Shown in pieces: positions 3,302-58,635 of a DNA stretch of 64,000 nt. A program made the translations under genes and the position numbers. Every line of letters starts with the position of its first letter. Within the stretch, counting starts at the first letter, position 1. Origin of the DNA: a virus. The stretch is from positions 1-64,000 of IMG/VR virus record IMGVR_UViG_3300020477_001932. The stretch is one strand, 5' to 3'. The notes beneath the pieces are model-generated. The model did not search any database and was not told where the DNA came from. It worked only from the letters and a program-made list of their open reading frames with translations.

Positions 3302-4915
3302 ATGGCAGACGATACCTATTTAGGGAATAACCTTCTAAAAGGTTTAGGCGTAAAACATGATTTTACTAAAGAAGAAATTGAGGAGTATATTAAATGTGCT
3401 AATGACCCAATTTATTTTTTAGAAAGTTATGTGAAGATCGTACACGTTGACGAAGGCCTTGTGCCTTTTAAGATGTATGATTTTCAGAAAAAACTAGTTG
3501 ACGCTATAACTGAAAACAGAAATGTTATCGTAAAAACTGGTAGGCAGGTTGGTAAAACAACTACAACTATCGGTTGGTTATTACATTATATTCTTTTTAA
3601 CGAAGAAAAAATTGTTGGCATTCTAGCGAATAAAGCCATCACAGCTCGGGAAATTCTTAGTCGGGTTCAAACATCCTACCAACATCTTCCAAAGTTTTTA
3701 CAGCAAGGATTAAGAGAATGGAATAAGGGTTCTATGGAACTTGAGAATGGAAGTAAAGTTATAGCTTCTTCCACATCTTCAAGTGCAATTCGTGGATTTT
3801 CATTTTCTTGTATTCTACTTGATGAATTTGCTCACGTTCAAAGGCATATTGCAAATGAGTTTATTCGTTCAGTTTATCCTACGATTTCGTCTGGTAAAGA
3901 AACAAAAGTTATTATAGTATCTACTCCAAATGGATTTAACTTGTTTTACAAGTTTTGGAATGATGCTGAAAATGGAAATAATACATTCTATCCATTTAGA
4001 GTACATTGGTCAAATGTGCCAGGCCGTGATGAAGAATGGCATAAAAGAATTGTATCGACAATCGGTGAAGATTCTTTCAGGCAAGAGTATGAAGCTGAGT
4101 TTTTGGGGTCAACTAACACACTTGTTTCGACCGAGAAGCTCCAAGAGCTATCATATAATGACCCAATATTCTCAAAAGATGGTTTAGATGTTCACGAAGA
4201 GCCAAATCCTGAGCGTACTTATACCATAACAGTAGATGTTGCAAGGGGTCAAGGAAACGATTATTCGGCGTTTTCGGTGTTTGATATAACAGAAATTCCA
4301 TATAAAGTAGTAGCAAAGTACAGAAATAACACGGTGGCACCCCTACACTTCCCAAATATTATAAATACTATTGGAAAGAGATATAATTATGCGTATATTT
4401 TAGTAGAAATAAATGACATTGGTTCACAGGTTGCAGATGTTTTACACCATGATTTAGAGTATGAGCATTTATATTCAACATCATGGTATGGAAGGCATGG
4501 TCAACAGCTAAGTAGTGGAGCAAGAAAAGAATCAGCTTTTGGTGTTAGAACAACAAAGACAATGAAAAAGATTGGTTGTTCTAATCTGAAATCTTTGATT
4601 GAAGAAAATAAGCTCTTGTTCAATGACTACGATATTATATCAGAATTAACAACATTTATTTCTACGGGTGAGTCCTACTCAGGCGAAGAAGGAACACATG
4701 ATGATTTAGTTATAACATTGGTGTTGTTTGCATGGCTAATAGATCAACAGTATTTTAAAGATTTAAGCCAACAAAATATAAGAGATAATTTATACCAAAA
4801 CCAATTAAACCAGTTAGAAGATTTAACGACACCATTTGGAGTTATTGATAATGGTTTGAATCAAGATGAATTTGAAATTGATTCTGATGGGACAGTTTGG
4901 AAAACAGTTCTTTAA
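3302..4915 (+). CDS. 17: Large terminase subunit gp17 (packaging ATPase and nuclease)
   Basis: The 537-residue protein has the two-domain terminase layout. The N-terminal ATPase has Walker A at about residues 79-88 (TGRQVGKTTT) and Walker B at about 171-179 (ILLDEFAHV), followed by the coupling motif VSTPNG. The C-terminal RNase H-fold nuclease has its first acidic residue in TITVDVARG near 313 and a late DD in THDDLV. It drives DNA into proheads at the portal and cuts the concatemer. The length is close to that of other marine T4-like gp17 and there is no intein or split. Confidence 0.97.
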   Translation: MADDTYLGNNLLKGLGVKHDFTKEEIEEYIKCANDPIYFLESYVKIVHVDEGLVPFKMYDFQKKLVDAITENRNVIVKTGRQVGKTTTTIGWLLHYILFNEEKIVGILANKAITAREILSRVQTSYQHLPKFLQQGLREWNKGSMELENGSKVIASSTSSSAIRGFSFSCILLDEFAHVQRHIANEFIRSVYPTISSGKETKVIIVSTPNGFNLFYKFWNDAENGNNTFYPFRVHWSNVPGRDEEWHKRIVSTIGEDSFRQEYEAEFLGSTNTLVSTEKLQELSYNDPIFSKDGLDVHEEPNPERTYTITVDVARGQGNDYSAFSVFDITEIPYKVVAKYRNNTVAPLHFPNIINTIGKRYNYAYILVEINDIGSQVADVLHHDLEYEHLYSTSWYGRHGQQLSSGARKESAFGVRTTKTMKKIGCSNLKSLIEENKLLFNDYDIISELTTFISTGESYSGEEGTHDDLVITLVLFAWLIDQQYFKDLSQQNIRDNLYQNQLNQLEDLTTPFGVIDNGLNQDEFEIDSDGTVWKTVL

Positions 4916-4951
4916 AAATAGATTATTGAGCAATTGATGAAAATATATTAA

Positions 4952-4959
4952 TATAAAAA
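4952..4959 (+). promoter_or_regulatory. Candidate late promoter before gene 18
   Basis: TATAAAAA lies about 30 bases upstream of the gene 18 start in the short gap after gene 17. It differs at one position from the TATAAATA found before other genes here, so it is a weaker candidate for gp55-directed late transcription. Confidence 0.35.
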
Positions 4960-4987
4960 ATGTAATTAATTGTAAAGGAGATAACAA

Positions 4988-6760
4988 ATGCCATTTCAAG
5001 TAAGTCCGGGCGTAAACGTCAGCGAGATTGATTTAACTAATGTCGTGCCTAATGTATCAACTAGTATTGGTGCATATGCAGGTCAATTTCAATGGGGTCC
5101 CGTAGAACAAAGAACATTAGTAGTTTCAGAAAACGATTTAGTAGAAAGATTTTTTAAACCAGACGAAAATACATTTGAAGATTTTTGGTCTTGTGCAAAC
5201 TATCTTGCATACTCTGATAATTTGCTCGTAGTAAGAATGGTTGAAGCCGATGCACGCAACGCCGTTGTTGGTGATGTTGATGCAGGTACAGCTACTCAAG
5301 TTAAAAATGATGATGATTGGGAAAGTGATAAAGGTGCTTTTTCCGATCAATTATTCATTGCTAAATATCCCGGATCTTTAGGTAACAGCCTAAAATGTAT
5401 TGTTATTGACTCTGCTGGATGGGCCAATGCAGTAGCACAGGGAGCAGGAGCAACAGCAGATCAAAAATTATTTCTAGCCAACTTTAATGGCGCACCCGGT
5501 ACATCACAAGACGTAATCAAAGCTAATGGTGGTGCTACAACTGGTAATGACGAAATGCACGTTTTAGTAATTGACGAAGATGGTCAGTTTACTGGTGAAG
5601 CAGGTGAAATTCTTGAAGTTCACGCATACGTTAGTAAAGCAAGAGATGCTTTGAAATTTGATGGTTCAAGTAACTACATTGAGAATGTTCTACGAAACGA
5701 ATCACGTTATGTTTGGTTGGGAGCTGTAGGACAATTAACAGCATCATCAACTGATGCAGGTAGTGAAGTTGATGCTGGTGCATTAAAAGCTGGAGCAGTA
5801 TTCAAATCATTGAATAGTGCAACACCAGCAGAAATGACACCCGGTGGGTCAATGACTGGTGGAGTAGTTGGTACAAATATTTCAGCCGGTACTAGAGAAT
5901 TAGGATATAACTTTTATTCTGATCCTGAAGTTGTTGATGTAACATTAGTTATTGGTGGACCTATTTTACCTCTAAATGGTAAAAATGTTATCGACAATGT
6001 TGTTGCAGCTAGAAAAGATTGTGTTGGCTTCTTTTCACCAGCAAAAACAAGTGTTGTAGGACAGGCTGATAGAGCAGTTATCGTTAATTCTATTACAACT
6101 GATAATACAGCATTGGGTTCATCTAGTTATGCAGTTATGGATAGTGCATGGAAATATCAATATGATCGCTATCGAGATAACTTCATCTATACACCAATGA
6201 ATGCTGATATTGCTGGTCTTTGTGCAAGAACAGACTTCACAAATGATCCTTGGTTTTCACCCGCTGGTCTTAACAGAGGAACAATTAAAAATGTTGTACG
6301 ACCAAGTTGGGAATGTCGAAAAGCAGAACGTGATACTCTATATAAAATTGGAACAAATCCGGTTGTAACTCAACCAGCTGTAGGTACTGTTTTGTTTGGT
6401 GATAAAACCATGCAAGTAGTTCCAAGTGCTTTTGATCGAATCAATGTACGAAGATTGTTTATCGTTCTTGAAAAAGCAATTGCTACTGCAGCTAAAGCAT
6501 TCATGTTTGAGTTTAATGATGAGTTTACAAGAGCTCAATTTGTTAGTGTTGTTACACCTTTCTTGAGTGAAGTAGAAGGCCGAAGAGGTATTACAGACTT
6601 TAAAGTAGTTTGTGATAGCACAAATAATACTGGCCAAATTATTGATACGAATCAATTTGTTGGCGATATTTATATTAAGCCAAATCGTTCTATCAACTTC
6701 ATTCAGTTGAATTTTATTGCCGCAAGAACTGATGTAGAATTTTCAGAAATCGGTGGTTAA
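4988..6760 (+). CDS. 18: Contractile tail sheath protein gp18
   Basis: The N-terminus MPFQVSPGVNVSEIDLTNVV is the hallmark of T4-like sheath proteins, and the C-terminal region (INVRRLFIVLEKAIATAAKAFMFE through RGITDFKVVCD) is the conserved sheath core. The 590-residue length is within the marine T4-like range. The protein polymerises around the gp19 tube and contracts during infection. A strong AAAGGAG site lies just before the ATG, suiting a major structural protein. Confidence 0.96.
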   Translation: MPFQVSPGVNVSEIDLTNVVPNVSTSIGAYAGQFQWGPVEQRTLVVSENDLVERFFKPDENTFEDFWSCANYLAYSDNLLVVRMVEADARNAVVGDVDAGTATQVKNDDDWESDKGAFSDQLFIAKYPGSLGNSLKCIVIDSAGWANAVAQGAGATADQKLFLANFNGAPGTSQDVIKANGGATTGNDEMHVLVIDEDGQFTGEAGEILEVHAYVSKARDALKFDGSSNYIENVLRNESRYVWLGAVGQLTASSTDAGSEVDAGALKAGAVFKSLNSATPAEMTPGGSMTGGVVGTNISAGTRELGYNFYSDPEVVDVTLVIGGPILPLNGKNVIDNVVAARKDCVGFFSPAKTSVVGQADRAVIVNSITTDNTALGSSSYAVMDSAWKYQYDRYRDNFIYTPMNADIAGLCARTDFTNDPWFSPAGLNRGTIKNVVRPSWECRKAERDTLYKIGTNPVVTQPAVGTVLFGDKTMQVVPSAFDRINVRRLFIVLEKAIATAAKAFMFEFNDEFTRAQFVSVVTPFLSEVEGRRGITDFKVVCDSTNNTGQIIDTNQFVGDIYIKPNRSINFIQLNFIAARTDVEFSEIGG

Positions 6761-15519: not shown

Positions 15520-15945
15520 ATGAAAGTTAATATGATTAATAAAAGTGAAAATCCATTACCAAAGTATGCAAAAGAAGGTGATGCTGGTATGGATATTTGT
15601 GCAGCTGAAGATGTTGCTATACCAGCATTTTGTTGGGAGGCAATTTTAACTGGAATATATATGCAACTTCCAGAAGGCTATGAATGTCAAATAAGATCAA
15701 GGTCTGGATTAGCTGCAAAACATGGTATTCAAGTTTTAAATAGTCCTGGCACTATTGATTCTGGTTATCGTGGTGAAGTTAAAGTTATATTAAAAAATAA
15801 TGCATACGCACCTTATGATATTAAAAAAGGTGATAGAATTGCACAGATGGTTTTTGCACCTGTAACAACTGCATCTATTACAGAAGTTGCTGAACTTTCT
15901 GATTCAGAACGTGGTGAAGGTGGATTGGGGAGTACAGGAAAATGA
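15520..15945 (+). CDS. dut: dUTP diphosphatase
   Basis: A 141-residue trimeric-type dUTPase with all five motifs in order: GDAGMDICA (I), RSRSGLAAKHGI (III region II-III), NSPGTIDSGYRGEV (III), GDRIAQMVF (IV) and the Gly-rich C-terminal RGEGGLGSTGK (V). It hydrolyses dUTP to dUMP and pyrophosphate, keeping uracil out of DNA and supplying dUMP to the ThyX encoded at 59812. The stop overlaps the gene 55 start by four bases. Confidence 0.96.
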   Translation: MKVNMINKSENPLPKYAKEGDAGMDICAAEDVAIPAFCWEAILTGIYMQLPEGYECQIRSRSGLAAKHGIQVLNSPGTIDSGYRGEVKVILKNNAYAPYDIKKGDRIAQMVFAPVTTASITEVAELSDSERGEGGLGSTGK

Positions 15946-16466
15946 CTGATAAGAAAAAACATTATGTTGACAATGAGAAGTTTTTTACTGAAATGAAGAA
16001 ATGGAAGCAAAGAGTACATGATGCTCGTGAGGTGGAAGATGATGATCCACCTACAACTGAATATATGGGTGAGTGTTTTCTAAAGATTTGTGAACATCTA
16101 GCCATGCGTCCAAATTTTATTAATTACACATTCCGTGATGATTTGATTTCTGATGGAATCGAGAATTGTTTGCTTTATGCTCACAATTTCAATCCAGAAA
16201 AATCGAAGAATCCTTTTTCATATTTTACACAAATTATTCATCATGCTTACGTTAGGAGGATAGTAAAAGAAAGAAAATTAATGCACGTTAAATATCTGCT
16301 CGTTGAACGGGAAGGTATATTAGAAGAAATAAGTAAATCTGGTGAAAGCCATAAAAAAATGACTAAAGAATGGGTGGACTATTTAAGAACCCATGAAAAA
16401 TATGCTGTAAATCCAACAAAGAAGAAAAAGAAGAAGAAGGCTGATTTAGAGTTGTATTATAGATAA
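15942..16466 (+). CDS. 55: Late-transcription sigma factor gp55
   Basis: A 174-residue protein of the T4 gp55 family. FRDDLISDGIENCLLYAHNFNPEKSKNPFSYFTQIIHHAYVRRI is the sigma region 2-like core that recognises TATAAATA. It replaces host sigma on RNA polymerase and requires the sliding clamp for activated late transcription. The basic run KKKKKKK near the end is followed by ADLELYYR, a hydrophobic C-terminal tail in the place where T4 gp55 contacts the clamp. Confidence 0.93.
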   Translation: MTDKKKHYVDNEKFFTEMKKWKQRVHDAREVEDDDPPTTEYMGECFLKICEHLAMRPNFINYTFRDDLISDGIENCLLYAHNFNPEKSKNPFSYFTQIIHHAYVRRIVKERKLMHVKYLLVEREGILEEISKSGESHKKMTKEWVDYLRTHEKYAVNPTKKKKKKKADLELYYR

Positions 16467-16520: not shown

Positions 16521-16757
16521 ATGGATTATCATGTTATGGCTAATGAAGAATGTCAAAGATGCAAACAATTTGAATTAGACCATAAATTTAAACATTGTTC
16601 TTTTACAGTAAGTCGTTTGGAAAATGGAAACGCATTACAAGAATTTGAATGTTCAAGATGTAAATTTAAATGGGAAAGGATATATGAAAGTAGCTCTAAT
16701 TACAGATCAACATTTCGGGGGAAAACAGGACAGTCAGAACTTTTTAAATCACATTGA
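16521..16757 (+). CDS. Small two-knuckle zinc protein
   Basis: A 78-residue frame with CQRCKQFE, a central HCSF and CSRCKFKWER, the layout of a zinc ribbon. It is the first gene after a strong promoter and has GGAG close to the ATG. Its final 74 bases overlap gene 47 in a different frame; the shared part codes for a Ser/Arg-rich tail. The Cys pairs all lie in the non-overlapping part, which supports a real gene. Function unknown. Confidence 0.6.
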   Translation: MDYHVMANEECQRCKQFELDHKFKHCSFTVSRLENGNALQEFECSRCKFKWERIYESSSNYRSTFRGKTGQSELFKSH

Positions 16758-17751
16758 GAGGTTTTACCGTGAACAATTTTTTCCATATTTGTCTGAAAAT
16801 AACATTCATACTGTTATTGATCTTGGCGATACTTTTGATCGCAGAAAGTTTGTTAATTTTAATACATTAGATAAAGTACGTCAATTTTATTTTGATGTAT
16901 TCTACGAAAACGGTATTAAATTACATTCTATCGTAGGCAATCATTCTACTTATTACAGAAATACAAATTCTGTTAATAGCTCTGAATTACTTTATGGTCA
17001 TTATGATAATATTGAAGTCTATCCAGAAGTTGAAACGATATGCCTTGATGGAACACTTATTGATTTAATACCTTGGATAAATTCAGAAAATTATGATAAG
17101 ACAATGTATTTTATCAAAAATTCTAAATCACAAATTGCTCTTGGACATTTAGAAGTTGCTGGATTTGCCATGTATAAAGGATATAATGCAGAGGATGGTA
17201 TTGCAAAAGATATATTTAAAGGATATGAGATAGTATGTTCTGGTCATTATCATCATAAGTCAAGTAAAGATAACATTCATTATCTTGGAGCTCCATACGA
17301 AATTACATGGAATGATTATGATGATCCTAGAGGGTTTCATGTATTAGATACAGAAATCAGAGAAATAGAGTTTATTCGTAATAAGTTTAGGTTGTTTGAA
17401 AAAATATATTATGATGATGAAAATACAGATTATGATACAATAGATACTGGTTATTATAAGAATAAGATAGTTAAACTGATTGTAGAAAATAAGAATAACA
17501 CAAATAATTATGAGAATTTTGTGGATAAGTTATATGAATCAGAATTAGCTGATTTAACTATACTTGAAGATTTGTCAGAGTATAGTGCTAGATATAGTGA
17601 AGATGAAGATGATGATGTTGAAATAAGTAATACTTCAGATTTCTTAGATGAGTATGTTGATGGTATGTCTGAAAATAAGAGTGAAGAAAAGGTTAAAGTA
17701 AAAAAATTATTAAAAGTTATTTATGATGAAGCCCTTAACATGGATGAATAA
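16684..17751 (+). CDS. 47: Recombination nuclease subunit gp47 (SbcD/Mre11-like)
   Basis: A 355-residue metallophosphoesterase. Motifs in order: ITDQHFGGK (I), DLGDTFDRR (II), VGNHS (III), ALGHLEV (IV) and CSGHYHHK (V), which bind the two catalytic metals. With gp46 it makes the Mre11/Rad50-type complex that resects ends for recombination-dependent replication. The frame is open upstream to 16624, but the ATG at 16684 follows GGGAAAGGA and begins at the family start MKVALITDQH. Confidence 0.94.
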   Translation: MKVALITDQHFGGKQDSQNFLNHIERFYREQFFPYLSENNIHTVIDLGDTFDRRKFVNFNTLDKVRQFYFDVFYENGIKLHSIVGNHSTYYRNTNSVNSSELLYGHYDNIEVYPEVETICLDGTLIDLIPWINSENYDKTMYFIKNSKSQIALGHLEVAGFAMYKGYNAEDGIAKDIFKGYEIVCSGHYHHKSSKDNIHYLGAPYEITWNDYDDPRGFHVLDTEIREIEFIRNKFRLFEKIYYDDENTDYDTIDTGYYKNKIVKLIVENKNNTNNYENFVDKLYESELADLTILEDLSEYSARYSEDEDDDVEISNTSDFLDEYVDGMSENKSEEKVKVKKLLKVIYDEALNMDE

Positions 17752-19451
17752 TGATTGTATTAAAAACTGTTAGATGGAAGAATTTTCTATCGACTGGTAA
17801 TCAATTTTTAGAGGTACAATTAGATAAAGAACCAATGACATTAATCGTTGGTAAAAATGGTGCTGGTAAATCGACATTAATTGATGCCATCACCTTTTCT
17901 TTATTTGGAAAGCCTTTTAAAAGGATTAATAAAGGCCAGTTGATGAACTCTGTCAATGAAAAAGATTTAGTTACAGAGATTGAGTTTAACATTGGTAAAA
18001 GTAAATGGAAAGTAAGGCGTGGTATTAAACCAGCTTTATTTGAAATCTACCACAATGGTAAAATAATCAACCAAGATGCAAAGAGTACAGATTATCAGAA
18101 GTATCTTGAAGATAAAGTTTTAAAATTGAATTTTAAATCATTTACTCAAATTGTCGTATTGGGCTCAGCTTCATTTGTTCCCTTTATGCAGTTATCAGCA
18201 AATGATAGACGAATTATTATTGAGGATATTCTGGATATTGGTATATTCTCTGTTATGAAGAATTTACTCAAAGATCGTTCAATGCTTCTCAAGGAAGAAA
18301 TGAGTGAGATTGAATATGAGATTAAATTGCTTCAAGAGAAAATCAAGATACAAGAAAAACATTTAAAGGAATTGAAAGAAAAAACAGCTTCTAAACGAAA
18401 ATCTGATTTAGAGAAAATAGAGGAGACGCAAGACGAAATTGCTAGACTTACAGAGGAGATAGAAGATCATCAAGATATGGTGGTATCCTTGATGAAGTCT
18501 ATTGCAGATGAAAATACGACACATAAAAAGAATAGTGAGTTGGATAAGTATCGTTCACAGATAAATAAGAATTTAAAGAAACTTAATAAGGATAAAAAGT
18601 TTTTTGCAGAAAAAGAAAATTGTCCTACTTGTGAACAAGATATTGATGAAGTATTTAAGAAAAGTAAGTTAAATTCTTTACAAGATGATATTGAAGAAAT
18701 GGATGATGGTCTTGAAAAGATAGAAACTGAAATTCAGAAAGTTTTTGACCGTTTAGCTGAAATTAATTTAGTTAATAAAGATATACAAAAAGAAGAAAAT
18801 GAGATTAGAACAAAGAATGGATATATTAAATCTCATAATAGCTTTATTAAGCATTTAAACGAAGAACTAACCAACATAGTAGAAGAAGCTGATGAGGGTA
18901 AGATAAAGATTTTAAATAGTGAATTAGAAGATCAAAAGAAGTCCAGAAGTGAATATACAGAGCAAAAGAGATATTATGATATTCTTGGTGCTATATTAAA
19001 TGATAAAGGTATTAAGACAAGGATTATACGGAAGTATCTTCCTTTCATAAATAACCATGTAAACAATTATCTTAAAGATATGGATTTCTTTGTTAATTTC
19101 CAGCTGGATGAGAATTTTCAAGAAACCATTAAGAGTAGGCATAGGGATGATTTCTCTTACTACTCATTTTCAGAAGGTGAAAAGAAAAGAATTGATATTG
19201 CATTATTGTTGACTTGGAGGCATATAGCTTCTATGCGTAATTCTGTTAATGTCAATCTTTTGATATTGGATGAAGTATTTGATGCAAGTTTAGATCAGGC
19301 TGGTGTAGATGATTTGATGAAGTTGTTTAATATACTAAATAAGACGAACTTGTTTATTATATCACATAAACTGGATATACTAGATGATAAGTTTCCAGCC
19401 AAGATAACAGTTGAGAAACTTAAAAACTTTACAACAATGGATTATAGATGA
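17751..19451 (+). CDS. 46: Recombination nuclease subunit gp46 (SbcC/Rad50-like)
   Basis: A 566-residue SMC-type ATPase: Walker A GKNGAGKST at about 34-42, long coiled coils on both sides of a zinc hook CPTC near residue 291, ABC signature FSEGEKKRIDIALLL, and Walker B LLILDEVFD near the end. It tethers DNA ends and powers the gp47 nuclease. The ATG shares its A with the gp47 stop (ATAATGA), so the pair should be translated together. Confidence 0.95.
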   Translation: MIVLKTVRWKNFLSTGNQFLEVQLDKEPMTLIVGKNGAGKSTLIDAITFSLFGKPFKRINKGQLMNSVNEKDLVTEIEFNIGKSKWKVRRGIKPALFEIYHNGKIINQDAKSTDYQKYLEDKVLKLNFKSFTQIVVLGSASFVPFMQLSANDRRIIIEDILDIGIFSVMKNLLKDRSMLLKEEMSEIEYEIKLLQEKIKIQEKHLKELKEKTASKRKSDLEKIEETQDEIARLTEEIEDHQDMVVSLMKSIADENTTHKKNSELDKYRSQINKNLKKLNKDKKFFAEKENCPTCEQDIDEVFKKSKLNSLQDDIEEMDDGLEKIETEIQKVFDRLAEINLVNKDIQKEENEIRTKNGYIKSHNSFIKHLNEELTNIVEEADEGKIKILNSELEDQKKSRSEYTEQKRYYDILGAILNDKGIKTRIIRKYLPFINNHVNNYLKDMDFFVNFQLDENFQETIKSRHRDDFSYYSFSEGEKKRIDIALLLTWRHIASMRNSVNVNLLILDEVFDASLDQAGVDDLMKLFNILNKTNLFIISHKLDILDDKFPAKITVEKLKNFTTMDYR

Positions 19452-19632: not shown

Positions 19633-19854
19633 ATGCCGTTATACAGTTATCGTTGCAACCAATGTGGTTTTGTTGATGAAGTATTTATTGATGTAAGTAA
19701 AAGAGATAAGAAGTGGCCGTGTGAGCAAGAAGGATGTACTGGTGTTATGATAAGAGAGTTGGATGCTCCATCATTCCAGTTAAAGGGTGATGGATGGTAT
19801 AAAGACGGATATACTAAAAAACCAAAGAAAGAGGAAAAAAATGAAAATAGTTAA
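19633..19854 (+). CDS. FmdB-type zinc-ribbon protein
   Basis: A 73-residue protein starting MPLYSYRCNQCGFVDEVF, the classic opening of the FmdB/CxxC zinc-ribbon family, with a second Cys pair (WPCEQEGCTG) and a basic C-terminal tail. Such proteins occur in bacteria and many phages as putative regulators. The start has AAGGGAG upstream. The next small gene overlaps its 3' end. Confidence 0.8.
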   Translation: MPLYSYRCNQCGFVDEVFIDVSKRDKKWPCEQEGCTGVMIRELDAPSFQLKGDGWYKDGYTKKPKKEEKNENS

Positions 19855-19936
19855 ATGGGCATTAATATTAGGTGTAATAGGATTTGTGGGGTATTGGGCA
19901 TTGAGAATATTAACAGCTATTGCGGTATTACATTAA
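19841..19936 (+). CDS. Tiny single-span membrane protein
   Basis: A 31-residue frame: MKIVKWALILGVIGFVGYWA continuing with a second hydrophobic half and ending in His. It is essentially one membrane helix with a basic N-terminus. A strong AAAGAGGAAA site precedes the ATG, and its stop TAA abuts the ATG of the proline dehydrogenase gene, so translation is likely coupled. Function unknown. Confidence 0.6.
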   Translation: MKIVKWALILGVIGFVGYWALRILTAIAVLH

Positions 19937-20830
19937 ATGAAACTATTATTTCTATTTGCAAAGAGATTTATTGCTGGATATGACTTTGCATCTGCAATAC
20001 CAGTTATCCAAAAACTTATGGATGATGGTTATAAAGTATCAGTTGATTATCTTGGTGAGTTGAGTGAGACCGAAGAAGATTGTGAAAGAGCTTACCAGCA
20101 ATATTTAGAAATTGTAGATTACTATAAAAATAATAAAATTGATATATCCATTAAACCATCACAATTAGGTTTAAAAATTAATAAAAATCTTTGTCAAAAG
20201 TTTATGGGTGGAATTGTTGGAAAGGCTTTTAGAAATGGTTTGACTATTCGTTTAGATATGGAAGATGATTCTTTGATAGAAGATACGATAGACTTATGTT
20301 TAAGGTTGCATAAATTTTATCCGAATACTGGATGTGCGATACAAACTAATATGTATCGAACTAAAGATGATCTAACCAAATTATTACAAAATAAAGTATC
20401 TATTAGATTAGTTAAAGGTGCATATAGAGGAAATAATAAAATAGCTTATCAGAATAAGAAACAGATTGAAAATTTGTTTTTGAAACAAAGCTTACAGATA
20501 TTATCTGATCGTTGTCGTTCTTATTATCATTTAAAAGATAAAAGAACACCCATTCATGCAATAGGTACACATGATAACAATATTATTAAACAGATTATTC
20601 ATTATAGTAAAACGATTAATATTAAGAAAGAAGATTTTGATTTTGAATTTTTATATGGAATTAGAAGGGACATTCAAACAGAGCTATTAGATTCAGGCTA
20701 TAATGTTAGGCTTTATGTGCCATTCGGCCAACAATGGCTACCTTATACGCTTAGGCGGCTTAAGGAGTTTAAGAACTTAAAATTTGTATTTTTGAATATT
20801 TTTCGTGAATTTTTTTCCAAAAGACCTTGA
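19937..20830 (+). CDS. Proline dehydrogenase (monofunctional)
   Basis: A 297-residue FAD enzyme with the full PRODH motif set: AKRFIAG near 8-14, DYLGE at 37-41, SIKPSQLGL at 71-79 (Lys73), IRLDMED at 104-110, IQTNMYR near 135-141, RLVKGAY at 157-163, THD at 211-213, FEFLYGIR at 236-243, RLYVPFG and PYTLRRL near 269-275, whose Arg pair holds the proline carboxylate. It oxidises proline to pyrroline-5-carboxylate and passes electrons to the respiratory chain. No P5C dehydrogenase domain is present, so the host would complete the pathway. It lies between recombination genes and hsp20. Likely host-derived. Confidence 0.92.
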   Translation: MKLLFLFAKRFIAGYDFASAIPVIQKLMDDGYKVSVDYLGELSETEEDCERAYQQYLEIVDYYKNNKIDISIKPSQLGLKINKNLCQKFMGGIVGKAFRNGLTIRLDMEDDSLIEDTIDLCLRLHKFYPNTGCAIQTNMYRTKDDLTKLLQNKVSIRLVKGAYRGNNKIAYQNKKQIENLFLKQSLQILSDRCRSYYHLKDKRTPIHAIGTHDNNIIKQIIHYSKTINIKKEDFDFEFLYGIRRDIQTELLDSGYNVRLYVPFGQQWLPYTLRRLKEFKNLKFVFLNIFREFFSKRP

Positions 20831-20888: not shown

Positions 20889-21305
20889 ATGACATTTTTA
20901 ACAAAACGTAACAACCATGACTTGTTTCCAAGTTGGATGGATTTCGACCGATTCGATAATTTTTTCAATTTAGACCCATGGACAGCTGGCTTAGAACATA
21001 GACCACAGAATAAGTATCGCTGGGATGAAACTGAAGATGCTTATATGATTGATATTGTTATGCCAGGTATGACAAAGAAAGATATTGACATTACATTTAA
21101 GAATGAAATGTTGTCTATTAAATGCACTAAAGAAGTATCGGAAAAAGACCAGAGATTCTTGGGTGTAAAAACTGAACAATCTTTTAAGAATTTTCCAAGT
21201 ACGATTGACTCCAATAATATTTCAGCAGAAATGGGTGATGGGGTCTTGACTATTACATTACCAAAGAGAGAGTCGGATAAACCGAAAACTATTGACATTA
21301 GATAG
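20889..21305 (+). CDS. hsp20: Small heat-shock protein Hsp20
   Basis: A 138-residue alpha-crystallin-type chaperone: a variable N-terminus, then the crystallin domain (YRWDETEDAYMIDIVMPGMTKKDIDI) with the conserved late GDGVLTITLPK. Marine T4-like phages commonly carry hsp20, probably to help fold phage proteins during infection. It has its own ribosome site (AAAGGAG) and is followed by a strong terminator, so it may be a single-gene unit. Confidence 0.94.
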   Translation: MTFLTKRNNHDLFPSWMDFDRFDNFFNLDPWTAGLEHRPQNKYRWDETEDAYMIDIVMPGMTKKDIDITFKNEMLSIKCTKEVSEKDQRFLGVKTEQSFKNFPSTIDSNNISAEMGDGVLTITLPKRESDKPKTIDIR

Positions 21306-21552: not shown

Positions 21553-21567
21553 TTGAGAGGATATATA

Positions 21568-22539
21568 ATGGATTTAACAATATGGGCTTTACTTGGTTTT
21601 TTGTTTGCGTGTTATGCGGTAACTGCTAATGATAGTATTCAAACACTAGGAACTTATATCTCATCTAATAGAGATATTAAGTGGTATTACCAATTTACAT
21701 TTATGGGTACTATCTTTGTTGGTACAATGTTATATGGATTTGGACAATATGATCCTGCCTTTGGTAGATTAGAAAAATTCCCCAATATAGATGTTCAATG
21801 GTATCATGCAGTAGCTCCATTAATCTTGATTGGACTAACAAGATTAAAAATTCCTGTTTCAACAACATTTTTAGTTTTATCAGTATTTGCTACATCCGTA
21901 GTAATGGAAAAAATGTTATTAAAAAGTTTTCTAGGGTATGCAGTATCTTTTGTATTCGCCTTTGTTTCATGGTATCTTATTAGTAGATATGTATTAAACG
22001 AAGGTGAAAAGGGTAAAGATGAACATAATAACTATTGGAGAGCATCCCAATGGATTACTACTGGTTGGTTATGGTCAACATGGTTAAAACATGATATGGC
22101 AAATATCATGGTATTTCTTCCACGTTATCATCCAGCTGGAAATGGAACTTATGAAGCACTTGTATTGATTTCTATGTTAGCAGGTCTTGGATATATGTTT
22201 TATGAACGAGGAGGAAAAATCCAAGAAATTGTAATGTCAAAAACTAATACAAGATATGTTCGTTCAGCAACATTGATTGATCTTGTATATTGTTTTGTTC
22301 TATATTTCTTTAAAGAATTAAATAATATTCCAATGAGTACAACATTTGTTTTTATGGGAATGTTAGCTGGTAGAGAATTGGGCATTTGGGTTTGGCTTGG
22401 ATATGGAAATTTGACTTATGGTAAAGAACATAGAAAAGCAATATTTCCAATGTTATATACTGATTTTCTCCGACTAATGCTTGGACTGGCTGTTTCCGTA
22501 TCACTTGCATATGGCGTTTTTTACTCTAACTCCTTGTAA
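21568..22539 (+). CDS. PiT-family inorganic phosphate permease
   Basis: A 323-residue polytopic membrane protein with the duplicated PiT signature: TANDSIQTLGTY near residues 18-29 and KIPVSTTF in the first half; KHDMANIMVFLPR and NIPMSTTFVFMGMLAGRELG in the second. These inverted repeats bind phosphate and the coupling cation in PiT carriers. It would import phosphate during infection of phosphate-limited cells. The ATG at 21568 follows GAGAGG. Sulfate or another anion cannot be fully excluded as substrate. Confidence 0.85.
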   Translation: MDLTIWALLGFLFACYAVTANDSIQTLGTYISSNRDIKWYYQFTFMGTIFVGTMLYGFGQYDPAFGRLEKFPNIDVQWYHAVAPLILIGLTRLKIPVSTTFLVLSVFATSVVMEKMLLKSFLGYAVSFVFAFVSWYLISRYVLNEGEKGKDEHNNYWRASQWITTGWLWSTWLKHDMANIMVFLPRYHPAGNGTYEALVLISMLAGLGYMFYERGGKIQEIVMSKTNTRYVRSATLIDLVYCFVLYFFKELNNIPMSTTFVFMGMLAGRELGIWVWLGYGNLTYGKEHRKAIFPMLYTDFLRLMLGLAVSVSLAYGVFYSNSL

Positions 22540-36065: not shown

Positions 36066-36734
36066 ATGAAAATTTCAGAAAAGATAAAAAATGCATTAGA
36101 CAAGGGTTACTTAGCTAATGATACAATATATGATGTTATTAATGATGAAGATAGAATAGAGTTAATAGAAGAAGTTAAAGAGGCATTTCAAGGTGTATTG
36201 GATGCTTTAGTTATAGATACAAAGAATGACCACAATACACAAGAGACAGCAAAACGTGTAGCAAAAATGTTTGTCAATGAAATATTCCGTGGCAGATATT
36301 ATCCCCCGCCTTGTGTTACTGCATTTCCAAATGCAAAGCAGTATGACCAGATTTATATGTCTGGCCCCATAACAATCAATTCAACGTGTGCGCACCATTT
36401 CCAAGCTATTGCTGGAAAAGCATATGTTGGAATCTTTCCGGGAAAGAAAGTTATTGGATTATCCAAGTTTAATCGTATGGTTGATTGGGTTGCATCCAGA
36501 CCACAAATTCAAGAAGAAATGACAGAACAAATAGCAGATATGATACAAGAAGAAACTGAAGCAAAGGGTGTAGCTGTTATTGTTAAAGCAGAACATTTTT
36601 GTATGACGGCAAGAGGTGTTAAAGAACATGAAAGTGATATGGTAACATCTGTTGTGCGTGGTATTTTTCGTGATGAACCAGCAACAAAAGCTGAGTTCTT
36701 TTCTTTGTTAAGTAATATGAAAGGGATGCAATAA
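36066..36734 (+). CDS. folE: GTP cyclohydrolase I FolE
   Basis: A 222-residue protein with the complete active site: STCAHHFQAIAGKAYVGIFPG, GLSKFNRMVDW, RPQIQEEMTEQIADMI, and AEHFCMTARGVKEHES, including the zinc-binding Cys and His residues. It converts GTP to dihydroneopterin triphosphate, the first step of the deazaguanine pathway. The ATG at 36066 is preceded by GAGAGGAG. The stop overlaps the queC start by one base. Confidence 0.95.
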   Translation: MKISEKIKNALDKGYLANDTIYDVINDEDRIELIEEVKEAFQGVLDALVIDTKNDHNTQETAKRVAKMFVNEIFRGRYYPPPCVTAFPNAKQYDQIYMSGPITINSTCAHHFQAIAGKAYVGIFPGKKVIGLSKFNRMVDWVASRPQIQEEMTEQIADMIQEETEAKGVAVIVKAEHFCMTARGVKEHESDMVTSVVRGIFRDEPATKAEFFSLLSNMKGMQ

Positions 36735-37516
36735 TGGTAAACATGGTAACTAGTGGTAAACAAGAAGCTACTGGTAAATCTGTTTTATTATATTCTGGTG
36801 GCATGGATAGTTTGATGTTTGACTATTTAATGAAGCCTGATGTATTATTGTATATTCCGACTGGTAGTGAATACGAAATGATAGAAAGCAGTAAAATACG
36901 TTTACTTGGTAAATATGGTTATTTGGATGAAGATAAATTAGTTGTTTTACCTCGTGTTTTAAATTTAAGTAAGTTTGAACGTGATGATGCAATCGTTCCA
37001 AATCGTAACGCACATTTAATGTTGTTAGCTTCTATGTATGGTGAAGATTTGATTCTTGGAAGTGTTCAAGGTGATAGATCATTCGATAAGGATCCTATTT
37101 TTTATCAGAAAATGACAGACTTGTTAAATCATATGTGGAAAGAACAGCATTGGACTGAGGAACGTGTTTTTAAAGTTAGCTCTCCATATAAAGATAAAAC
37201 AAAGACGGAGATTGTTAAAGAGTATCTGGAAAAGGGTGGTAGTGCAGACGCATTACTACTTTCATGGAGTTGTTATGATCCACAATCAAGATATTTGTTA
37301 GACCCCGAAAGGGCTTGTGGATGGTGTAAACCATGTTTTCGTAAATGGATTTCACTTCATAATAACAATATAAGTATTCCAGAAGATTATTATGCAAACA
37401 ATCCATGGGAAGCACCATGGCTTGAAAAGTTAATTCCTTCTGTACTTGAAAAGAATTATCGAGGAAAAGAAGATTATGATTGGTGTGATGCCTTAACAAG
37501 TAAAGGAGTTTTATGA
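36734..37516 (+). CDS. queC: 7-cyano-7-deazaguanine (preQ0) synthase QueC
   Basis: A 260-residue PP-loop ATPase: VLLYSGGMDSLMF near residues 17-29, PNRNAHLM, and the zinc site SWSCYDPQ with RACGWCKPCFRKW near the end. It turns 7-carboxy-7-deazaguanine into preQ0 with ATP and ammonia. No amidotransferase domain is fused, so the product should be free preQ0. It follows folE and overlaps the transglycosylase gene by four bases. Confidence 0.94.
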   Translation: MVNMVTSGKQEATGKSVLLYSGGMDSLMFDYLMKPDVLLYIPTGSEYEMIESSKIRLLGKYGYLDEDKLVVLPRVLNLSKFERDDAIVPNRNAHLMLLASMYGEDLILGSVQGDRSFDKDPIFYQKMTDLLNHMWKEQHWTEERVFKVSSPYKDKTKTEIVKEYLEKGGSADALLLSWSCYDPQSRYLLDPERACGWCKPCFRKWISLHNNNISIPEDYYANNPWEAPWLEKLIPSVLEKNYRGKEDYDWCDALTSKGVL

Positions 37517-57525: not shown

Positions 57526-58635
57526 ATGAAAAATGAAAACATACATATTGGAATAGTTGGAGCTGGAATCATTGGCTCCACAATATATCAACTTTTGGTT
57601 AGTTGTGGAAAGAAGTACCAAGTTTCCATAGCAGATCAAAAGGAAAATAATGATCTCCTCATCAATGATGATAACTATCATAGGTTGACAATCACAAAAC
57701 CAACTTATGATGGTAAATCTACGCAGTTTACTCAATTCGTGCGTAGTAAAGATGTTATCATTAATGCACTCCCCTATCATCAAAATATCAATTTATTTAA
57801 AGCCTGTTTTGAATTGGGCGTTCCATATTTCGATTTATCAGAAGATGATGGTTTGGACAAATTCATAGAAAGTCTAAATATCTTTGACTTGTCTTTTACT
57901 ATGCCTCATTGTGGACTTGCACCTGGTTTATCTACTGTAATAGCAAATGACTTATTACGCATAACATCTAATCCGAAAAATGTTAAAATTCGTGTTGGTG
58001 CATTATCTCAAAATGCAGCTAATAAATTAAGATATTATACTTCTTGGAGTGGTGAGGGTTTAGTTAATGAGTATATTGGTGATTGTCAAGTAATGGAAGA
58101 TGGTGAATATAAAACAGTACCAGCTCTATCTGGATATGAAAAGATTACTTTAGATGGTAGAGAGTATGAGTGTTTTAATACGTCTGGTGGTTTGGGTACT
58201 TATGCTAAATCTTTAGATGATACAAACAAGTCTAATAGAATGTATAAATCATTAAGTGTAGATTATAAAACCATAAGAAGAAATGGCCATCATAATTACG
58301 TTGATTTTCTGTTTAATGATTTGCAATTATCACAACAGGAGCTAACTAGTATATTCAGAAATATTCCACAAACAAGAAAAGATGTTGTTTTACTTTATGC
58401 TTCATGTAGTAGTCCTGGCCATGATGATGAGCATACATATTTTAATATATTCAGACCAAGACAAATTAATGGTAGATGGTTGACAGCTATTCAATATACA
58501 ACAGCTATTGGTTTGGTTGCTATGGTTGAATTATTTTTAGATGGAAAATTGGGAGAAACAGGTTATCGAAAGCAAGAAGAAGTTTTATTGAGTGATGTTT
58601 ATTCTACAACATATGGGAGTTATTATAGAGATTAG
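57526..58635 (+). CDS. Saccharopine dehydrogenase-like oxidoreductase
   Basis: A 369-residue protein with an N-terminal NAD(P)-binding Rossmann fold (IGIVGAGIIGSTIYQLL), DVIINALPYHQN, and the family hallmark HCGLAPGLSTVIANDLL near residue 130, then TSGGLGTY. This fits saccharopine dehydrogenase/lysine 6-dehydrogenase-type enzymes, which handle saccharopine or lysine-derived semialdehydes; carboxynorspermidine synthase is a related alternative. Driven by its own leaderless-type promoter. Likely acquired from a bacterium. Confidence 0.82.
   Translation: MKNENIHIGIVGAGIIGSTIYQLLVSCGKKYQVSIADQKENNDLLINDDNYHRLTITKPTYDGKSTQFTQFVRSKDVIINALPYHQNINLFKACFELGVPYFDLSEDDGLDKFIESLNIFDLSFTMPHCGLAPGLSTVIANDLLRITSNPKNVKIRVGALSQNAANKLRYYTSWSGEGLVNEYIGDCQVMEDGEYKTVPALSGYEKITLDGREYECFNTSGGLGTYAKSLDDTNKSNRMYKSLSVDYKTIRRNGHHNYVDFLFNDLQLSQQELTSIFRNIPQTRKDVVLLYASCSSPGHDDEHTYFNIFRPRQINGRWLTAIQYTTAIGLVAMVELFLDGKLGETGYRKQEEVLLSDVYSTTYGSYYRD

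Follow-up and report, generated by a model that had tools for sequence, protein, structure and literature searches.

A proline dehydrogenase gene within a T4-like replication block

The window analysed here is a stretch of 64,000 nucleotides from the viral record IMGVR_UViG_3300020477_001932, which is 74,256 bases long and probably an incomplete fragment. Using its open reading frames, we identified an uninterrupted frame of 297 codons with an ATG start, at exactly the coordinates given in a preliminary description of this DNA, whose product is assigned to proline dehydrogenase (PRODH; Table 1). The record encodes many T4-like proteins, including the head protein phrog_138, terminase, sheath, DNA polymerase and replicative helicase, together with UvsX, UvsW, a late sigma factor, gp46/gp47, dUTPase and ribonucleotide reductase. 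The PRODH gene is thus flanked by phage genes inside a genuine phage genome, and its place within the T4-like replication block excludes contamination by host DNA. The nearest INPHARED phages by gp46 are cyanomyoviruses (~48% identity), and we found no evidence in this analysis that the window phage is a cyanophage. A search for tRNA genes as a clue to the host found none across the window and the rest of the record.

Immediately upstream of PRODH lie an FmdB-type gene and a micro-ORF, and a peptide similar to the latter is found in contig L002. We considered the micro-ORF as a partner of PRODH and rejected it because the interval between the FmdB and HSP20 genes holds small ORFs even where PRODH sits elsewhere; the micro-ORF probably has no functional tie to PRODH. 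Two other genes of the window are recorded as separate observations. One encodes a protein with multiple TM segments whose AND..QTLGTY and P(V/M)STTF motifs resemble PiT phosphate permeases; it gave only a weak PHO4 match (E 0.0018) and no PHROG. The other is a QueC-like gene of queuosine/7-deazaguanine biosynthesis (PF06508), possibly with a role in DNA modification.

Table 1. Features of the window discussed in the text, with positions in the window.
Feature	Position	Strand	Remarks
late sigma factor (gp55 type)	15942..16466	+	left border of site i, vacant in the window
gp47/SbcD-like nuclease subunit	16624..17751	+	right border of alternative site i
gp46/SbcC-like nuclease subunit	17751..19451	+	phage phylogenetic marker
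FmdB-type zinc-ribbon protein	19633..19854	+	left neighbour of PRODH, insertion site ii
single-TM micro-ORF	19841..19936	+	31 codons; stop codon abuts PRODH start
proline dehydrogenase (PRODH)	19937..20830	+	297 aa; assigned by Pfam, PDB sequence match and AlphaFold model
PRODH architecture			predicted FAD TIM barrel; helix C at ~residues 2-14; helix 8 with Arg273/Arg274
Glu41 codon	20057..20059	+	Thermus Glu65, Arg partner in active-site gate
Lys73 codon	20153..20155	+	Thermus Lys99, proline carboxylate binding
Arg273-Arg274 codons	20753..20758	+	Thermus Arg288/Arg289, proline binding
HSP20 small heat-shock protein	20889..21305	+	right neighbour of PRODH, insertion site ii
multi-TM protein	21553..22539	+	PiT phosphate permease-like
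QueC-like gene	36734..37516	+	PF06508
saccharopine-dehydrogenase/lysine-6-dehydrogenase-like enzyme	57526..58635	+	369 aa; PF16653 and PF03435 over cut-off

Family, fold and active site

The protein scores 102 bits with the Pfam family PF01619 (Pro_dh), whose cut-off is 27, its residues 23-277 aligning to model positions 4-268 of 278, and its top PDB sequence match is the Thermus thermophilus PRODH 2ekg (E 1.5e-41). An AlphaFold model with 34 phage homologues as input (pLDDT 88.5, pTM 0.87) superimposes on 2ekg with a TM score of 0.84 and an rmsd of 1.5 Å, which indicates a PRODH-type beta/alpha barrel, and the top structural matches of the model are PRODH or PutA without exception. The nearest NCBIfam model is NF045947 (ProDh_Thermus) at 183 bits, under its equivalog cut-off of 500, which by sequence places the phage protein in the superfamily of the Thermus enzyme and outside the Thermus equivalog. 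The 297-aa ORF has no fused delta1-pyrroline-5-carboxylate (P5C) dehydrogenase domain and is no bifunctional PutA; as judged from sequence and model, it is a monofunctional PRODH.

The preliminary description had proposed a phage-encoded PRODH with an intact active site, naming Lys73, a THD motif and a C-terminal Arg pair. We found all of these (THD at 211-213, the Arg pair at 273/274) in alignment with the Thermus and Deinococcus enzymes, and the Pfam match, alignment, tree position and model all agree with the proposal. The FAD- and proline-binding residues checked are all present (K73, D107, R157, K160, Y163, T211-H212-D213, Y260, Y270, R273, R274 and E277). Residues E41, Q136 and Y240, the LDMED block, VKGAY (159-163) and LYG (239-241) are also kept. 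In the alignment with the Thermus and Deinococcus enzymes all of these positions are invariant across the complete phage copies (50 of 50). The invariance of RLDMED, GTHD and LYGIRRD is partly ascertained because these motifs served as search patterns for the phage copies; K73, E41, R157, VKGAY, Y260, Y270, R273, R274 and E277 are free of this bias. In Thermus numbering (chain numbers minus the 20-residue tag), E41 corresponds to E65, K73 to K99, D107 to D133, R157 to R184, Y163 to Y190, Y260 to Y275 and R273/R274 to R288/R289. Additionally, the phage copies differ from the solved enzymes at some fixed positions, such as N138 (Tyr in Thermus) and E237 (Gln), which may bear on activity.

Studies of the Thermus enzyme assign roles to Lys99, to Arg288/289 and to a gate formed by Arg288 and Glu65 (PMC6017737). 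Without helices A and B that enzyme is a highly active tetramer, and loss of helix C nearly abolishes its activity, partly via clipping of helix 8 (PMC6017737). The phage PRODH lacks the N-terminal helices A-B and keeps helix C, its residues 8-12 aligning with Thermus 32-36. Since it begins about at helix C, it resembles the active engineered Thermus ΔAB form.

Occurrence among viruses

No PHROGs family matches the phage PRODH, a viral structure library gives a single good match, to a protein of mimivirus type with 19% identity, and our search of the phage literature yielded no report of a phage-encoded PRODH. INPHARED holds seven matching records, at ~26-32% identity to the window protein. 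We inspected two annotated records and rejected both as phage PRODH: in UPMK_1 (MG543995.1) the gene lies beside riboflavin genes in a chromosomal context, and in MaAM05 (MW495066.1) it lies with murJ, pcnB and ompA on a chromosomal stretch. As these two records carry bacterial chromosome, the 'phage PRODH' entries of the database are misleading, a verdict drawn from this annotated pair. Two further S. aureus records have the same 31.6% match and no annotation, the Acinetobacter matches bear a trifunctional PutA annotation, and MT836077 is an unverified clone of 13 kb that likewise lacks annotation.

Relatives are plentiful in IMG/VR, where one search gave 57 loci and a second gave 62, on mostly identical contigs (~60 contigs). 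They split into two groups that represent two unrelated phage lineages. Group A has a G+C of ~0.29-0.34 and the same T4-like block as the window. Group B has a G+C of mostly 0.35-0.43 and contigs of up to 178 kb; phrog_138 is absent from all four long group-B contigs examined, and a terminase match was obtained in two of them. The gene had been described as uncommon. This description holds for PHROGs, for the phage literature searched and for viral structures other than the giant-virus type, but not for two uncultured marine phage lineages in which the gene is common.

Several observations accompany this survey. Two viral contigs (L152 and L153) carry a third type of phage PRODH, on a very long branch at the base of the tree and with 35-36% identity. 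A 178-kb phage contig contains a tmRNA gene (L285, G011:66001-86000, 4910-5327, + strand; RF00023, 126 bits, tag EADEILAKFGYVEEEELQLAA), close to which lie phage tRNAs for Arg, Ile and Leu, and the contig also encodes an RpoS/RpoD-type sigma factor (L286 8426-9283), a histidine-decarboxylase-type protein (L285 3-713) and a GMP reductase (L286 5605-6759). The phage contigs L059 and L060 are binned in an Acidimicrobiaceae and a Marinimicrobia MAG; because these two bins are unrelated we take the placement as a binning error and rejected it as host evidence.

Cellular origin and inheritance

The nearest cellular PRODHs are found in Nitrospinota and in a small marine gammaproteobacterial family with genomes of 1.1-1.6 Mb, at 36-48% identity, and these short-arm enzymes have the N-terminus MKLLYPFAKRFIAG and their length in common with the phage protein. 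Within the wider cellular PRODH tree the phages group with the small-genome Gammaproteobacteria (support 100/99.7; seven gammaproteobacterial sequences, from few cellular genomes, in the donor analysis), the phage protein falling inside the PRODH tree and not in a non-PRODH branch. Nitrospinota had been suggested as the donor by a first hint from a genome scan, and we rejected them, as a grouping of phages with Nitrospinota without the gammas is rejected by the AU test (p 0.00032). The gammaproteobacterial genes look chromosomal, since their neighbours on the contigs encode an amidohydrolase or a TonB receptor. In one tree the PRODHs of groups A and B make up a single clade (81/58); this clade is missing in the other tree but is not rejected by the test (p 0.34), and on these phylogenies we regard the PRODH of both groups as likely monophyletic. 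The tree thus derives the phage PRODH from a cellular lineage, with a donor that was probably a marine gammaproteobacterial-type cell, before the window lineage diversified. The cellular relatives suggest candidate hosts among uncultured marine Gammaproteobacteria.

The majority of group A contigs carry PRODH at site i, with the late sigma gene on one side and gp47 on the other. The window, L002, L005, L006, L008, L009 and L011-L013 carry it at site ii, between the FmdB and HSP20 genes, and where a group A contig covers both sites only one is occupied. A scan based on gp46, and hence blind to PRODH, found 33 contigs, six of which are too short to tell; PRODH is present in 23 of the 27 informative contigs and absent from four fully covered ones (L252, L266 and the near-identical L268 and L269). 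On the gp46 tree the site-ii phages form a single clade (97/98), and the contigs without PRODH are nested at three places within PRODH-bearing clades. PRODH and gp46 distances are correlated (Mantel r 0.63, 0 of 2000 permutations). On this one marker tree the most economical reading is a single ancestral acquisition, one relocation and about three losses, with otherwise mainly vertical inheritance; the direction of the relocation is not fixed because the gp46 tree is midpoint-rooted. Among PRODH pairs with a dS of 0.2-0.9 the dN/dS is ~0.10-0.34, and phage PRODH is under purifying selection. A relative with an empty site i (L273, IMGVR_UViG_2811995109_000001) has a source number unlike those of metagenomes and, should it come from a single cell or an isolate, could name the host.

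Proposed function

Monofunctional PRODHs pass electrons from proline via FAD to the membrane quinone. We think it likely that the phage gene encodes a catalytically competent PRODH that is expressed in infection and delivers electrons to quinone, after acquisition from a cell and then mainly vertical inheritance; expression, activity, quinone as the acceptor and a benefit to the phage are what we infer, whereas the gene itself, its modelled fold and active-site residues, the purifying selection, the phage setting and the inheritance on a single marker tree are shown. The phage would express the FAD-dependent enzyme during infection, L-proline would be oxidised to P5C, and the electrons would enter the membrane quinone pool of the host, which would help to maintain respiration and ATP while host metabolism shuts down. 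Host enzymes would then convert P5C to glutamate. A respiratory quinone pool in the host that could accept these electrons is assumed. Host catabolic genes can be turned down in infected cells; in Yersinia infected by YerA41 the host putA transcript falls (PMC7354516). We found no aldehyde dehydrogenase that could act as a P5C dehydrogenase in the 74-kb record, itself incomplete, so that glutamate formation would depend on the host. Of the P5C/glutamate supply proposed in the preliminary description, the predicted P5C step stands and the glutamate step would require a P5C dehydrogenase from the host; the electron transfer to the respiratory chain, also proposed there, is sound for the enzyme family and predicted for the phage enzyme.

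The PRODH may also belong to a wider set of amino-acid enzymes. The window encodes a saccharopine-dehydrogenase-family protein whose top PDB match is 3abi/PH1688, an L-lysine 6-dehydrogenase. A homologue with 30% identity is present in the group-B phage L039, and homologues occur in all four long group-B contigs, each of which bears PRODH, with an aldehyde dehydrogenase gene ~1-6 kb away. We considered this aldehyde dehydrogenase as the P5C dehydrogenase partner and do not claim it as such, as it reaches no P5C dehydrogenase cut-off. An ornithine-cyclodeaminase-family gene is found in three of the four long contigs; it lies near PRODH in 7 of ~13 distinct group-B loci and directly beside it in four. 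As a tentative extension, which we consider less likely than not, PRODH could be part of a phage amino-acid oxidation programme common to two unrelated marine lineages. It would act alongside the saccharopine/lysine-6-dehydrogenase-like enzyme and, in group B, the aldehyde dehydrogenase and often the ornithine-cyclodeaminase-family enzyme, and in this programme proline, ornithine and lysine from host protein would yield reduced quinone and NADH.

Alternative explanations

An anabolic role, in which phage-made P5C would be converted to glutamate by the host and so supply the synthesis of nucleotides and amino acids for phage DNA, is compatible with the electron role, and we take it seriously while leaning against it. 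The window phage has its own ribonucleotide reductase and dUTPase and so invests in nucleotide supply, and the ornithine-cyclodeaminase/mu-crystallin gene often found beside group-B PRODH may mean ornithine-proline-P5C traffic. However, the window record has no aldehyde dehydrogenase able to act on P5C, and the group-B enzyme is below every NCBIfam equivalog cut-off shown (P5C dehydrogenase 257 vs 660 bits). The enzyme might instead use a substrate such as hydroxyproline or a similar cyclic or N-alkyl amino acid, as the phage copies share no more than 48% identity with the cellular copies found and carry fixed residues that are theirs alone. We consider this improbable, since the residues for the proline carboxylate are fully intact and Tyr260, presumably the counterpart of the hydroxyproline-excluding Tyr540 of E. 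coli PutA, is kept in 50 of 50 copies. A Y540S mutant of PutA has been crystallised with hydroxyproline (PDB 3e2q).

The protein might have ceased to be an active PRODH and have taken on a structural or regulatory role. This is very improbable given that highly diverged copies keep all checked catalytic and FAD contacts at a dN/dS of 0.1-0.34. The published 'phage' records UPMK_1 (riboflavin genes) and MaAM05 (murJ, pcnB), with PRODH amid chromosomal genes, also raise the question of host DNA misassembled onto a phage contig. To this we assign a negligible probability, because the gene recurs between phage genes at one or other of two fixed positions across dozens of separate contigs, its sequence is distant from every cellular copy, and its divergence is correlated with that of gp46. 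The reading that we prefer remains a catalytically competent PRODH with quinone as its acceptor.

Comparison with known systems and significance

The phage enzyme resembles the monofunctional bacterial PRODHs of Thermus (2g37/2ekg) and Deinococcus (4h6q) in its TIM barrel, FAD/proline residues, Arg-Glu gate and helices C and 8. It differs from them in being ~32% identical, in the absence of helices A/B and in its own fixed residues, and the group A enzymes have an insertion of ~16 residues before the GTHD motif. The short-arm Nitrospinota and gammaproteobacterial PRODHs are the closest cellular relatives, but they are found in bacterial chromosomal contexts. PRODH is likewise virus-encoded in the prasinovirus OtV5, where a bacterial origin is suspected (PMC2386258), and in haptophyte viruses (PMC11953307); these are algal viruses of an unrelated group. 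T4-like cyanomyoviruses also carry host-derived metabolic genes within their core block, but their genes serve photosynthesis or the pentose-phosphate route, whereas the window PRODH is predicted to serve amino-acid oxidation.

Altogether, sequence evidence supports a real and apparently functional phage-borne PRODH, representing a new auxiliary metabolic gene family that extends far beyond a one-off occurrence. The known metabolic genes of phages mostly concern photosynthesis, sugar flow and nucleotide supply. Most phages of one T4-like marine lineage keep PRODH, which is also found in an unrelated phage lineage. If the proposed function is true, some ocean phages would fuel respiration directly from the amino acids of the infected cell.
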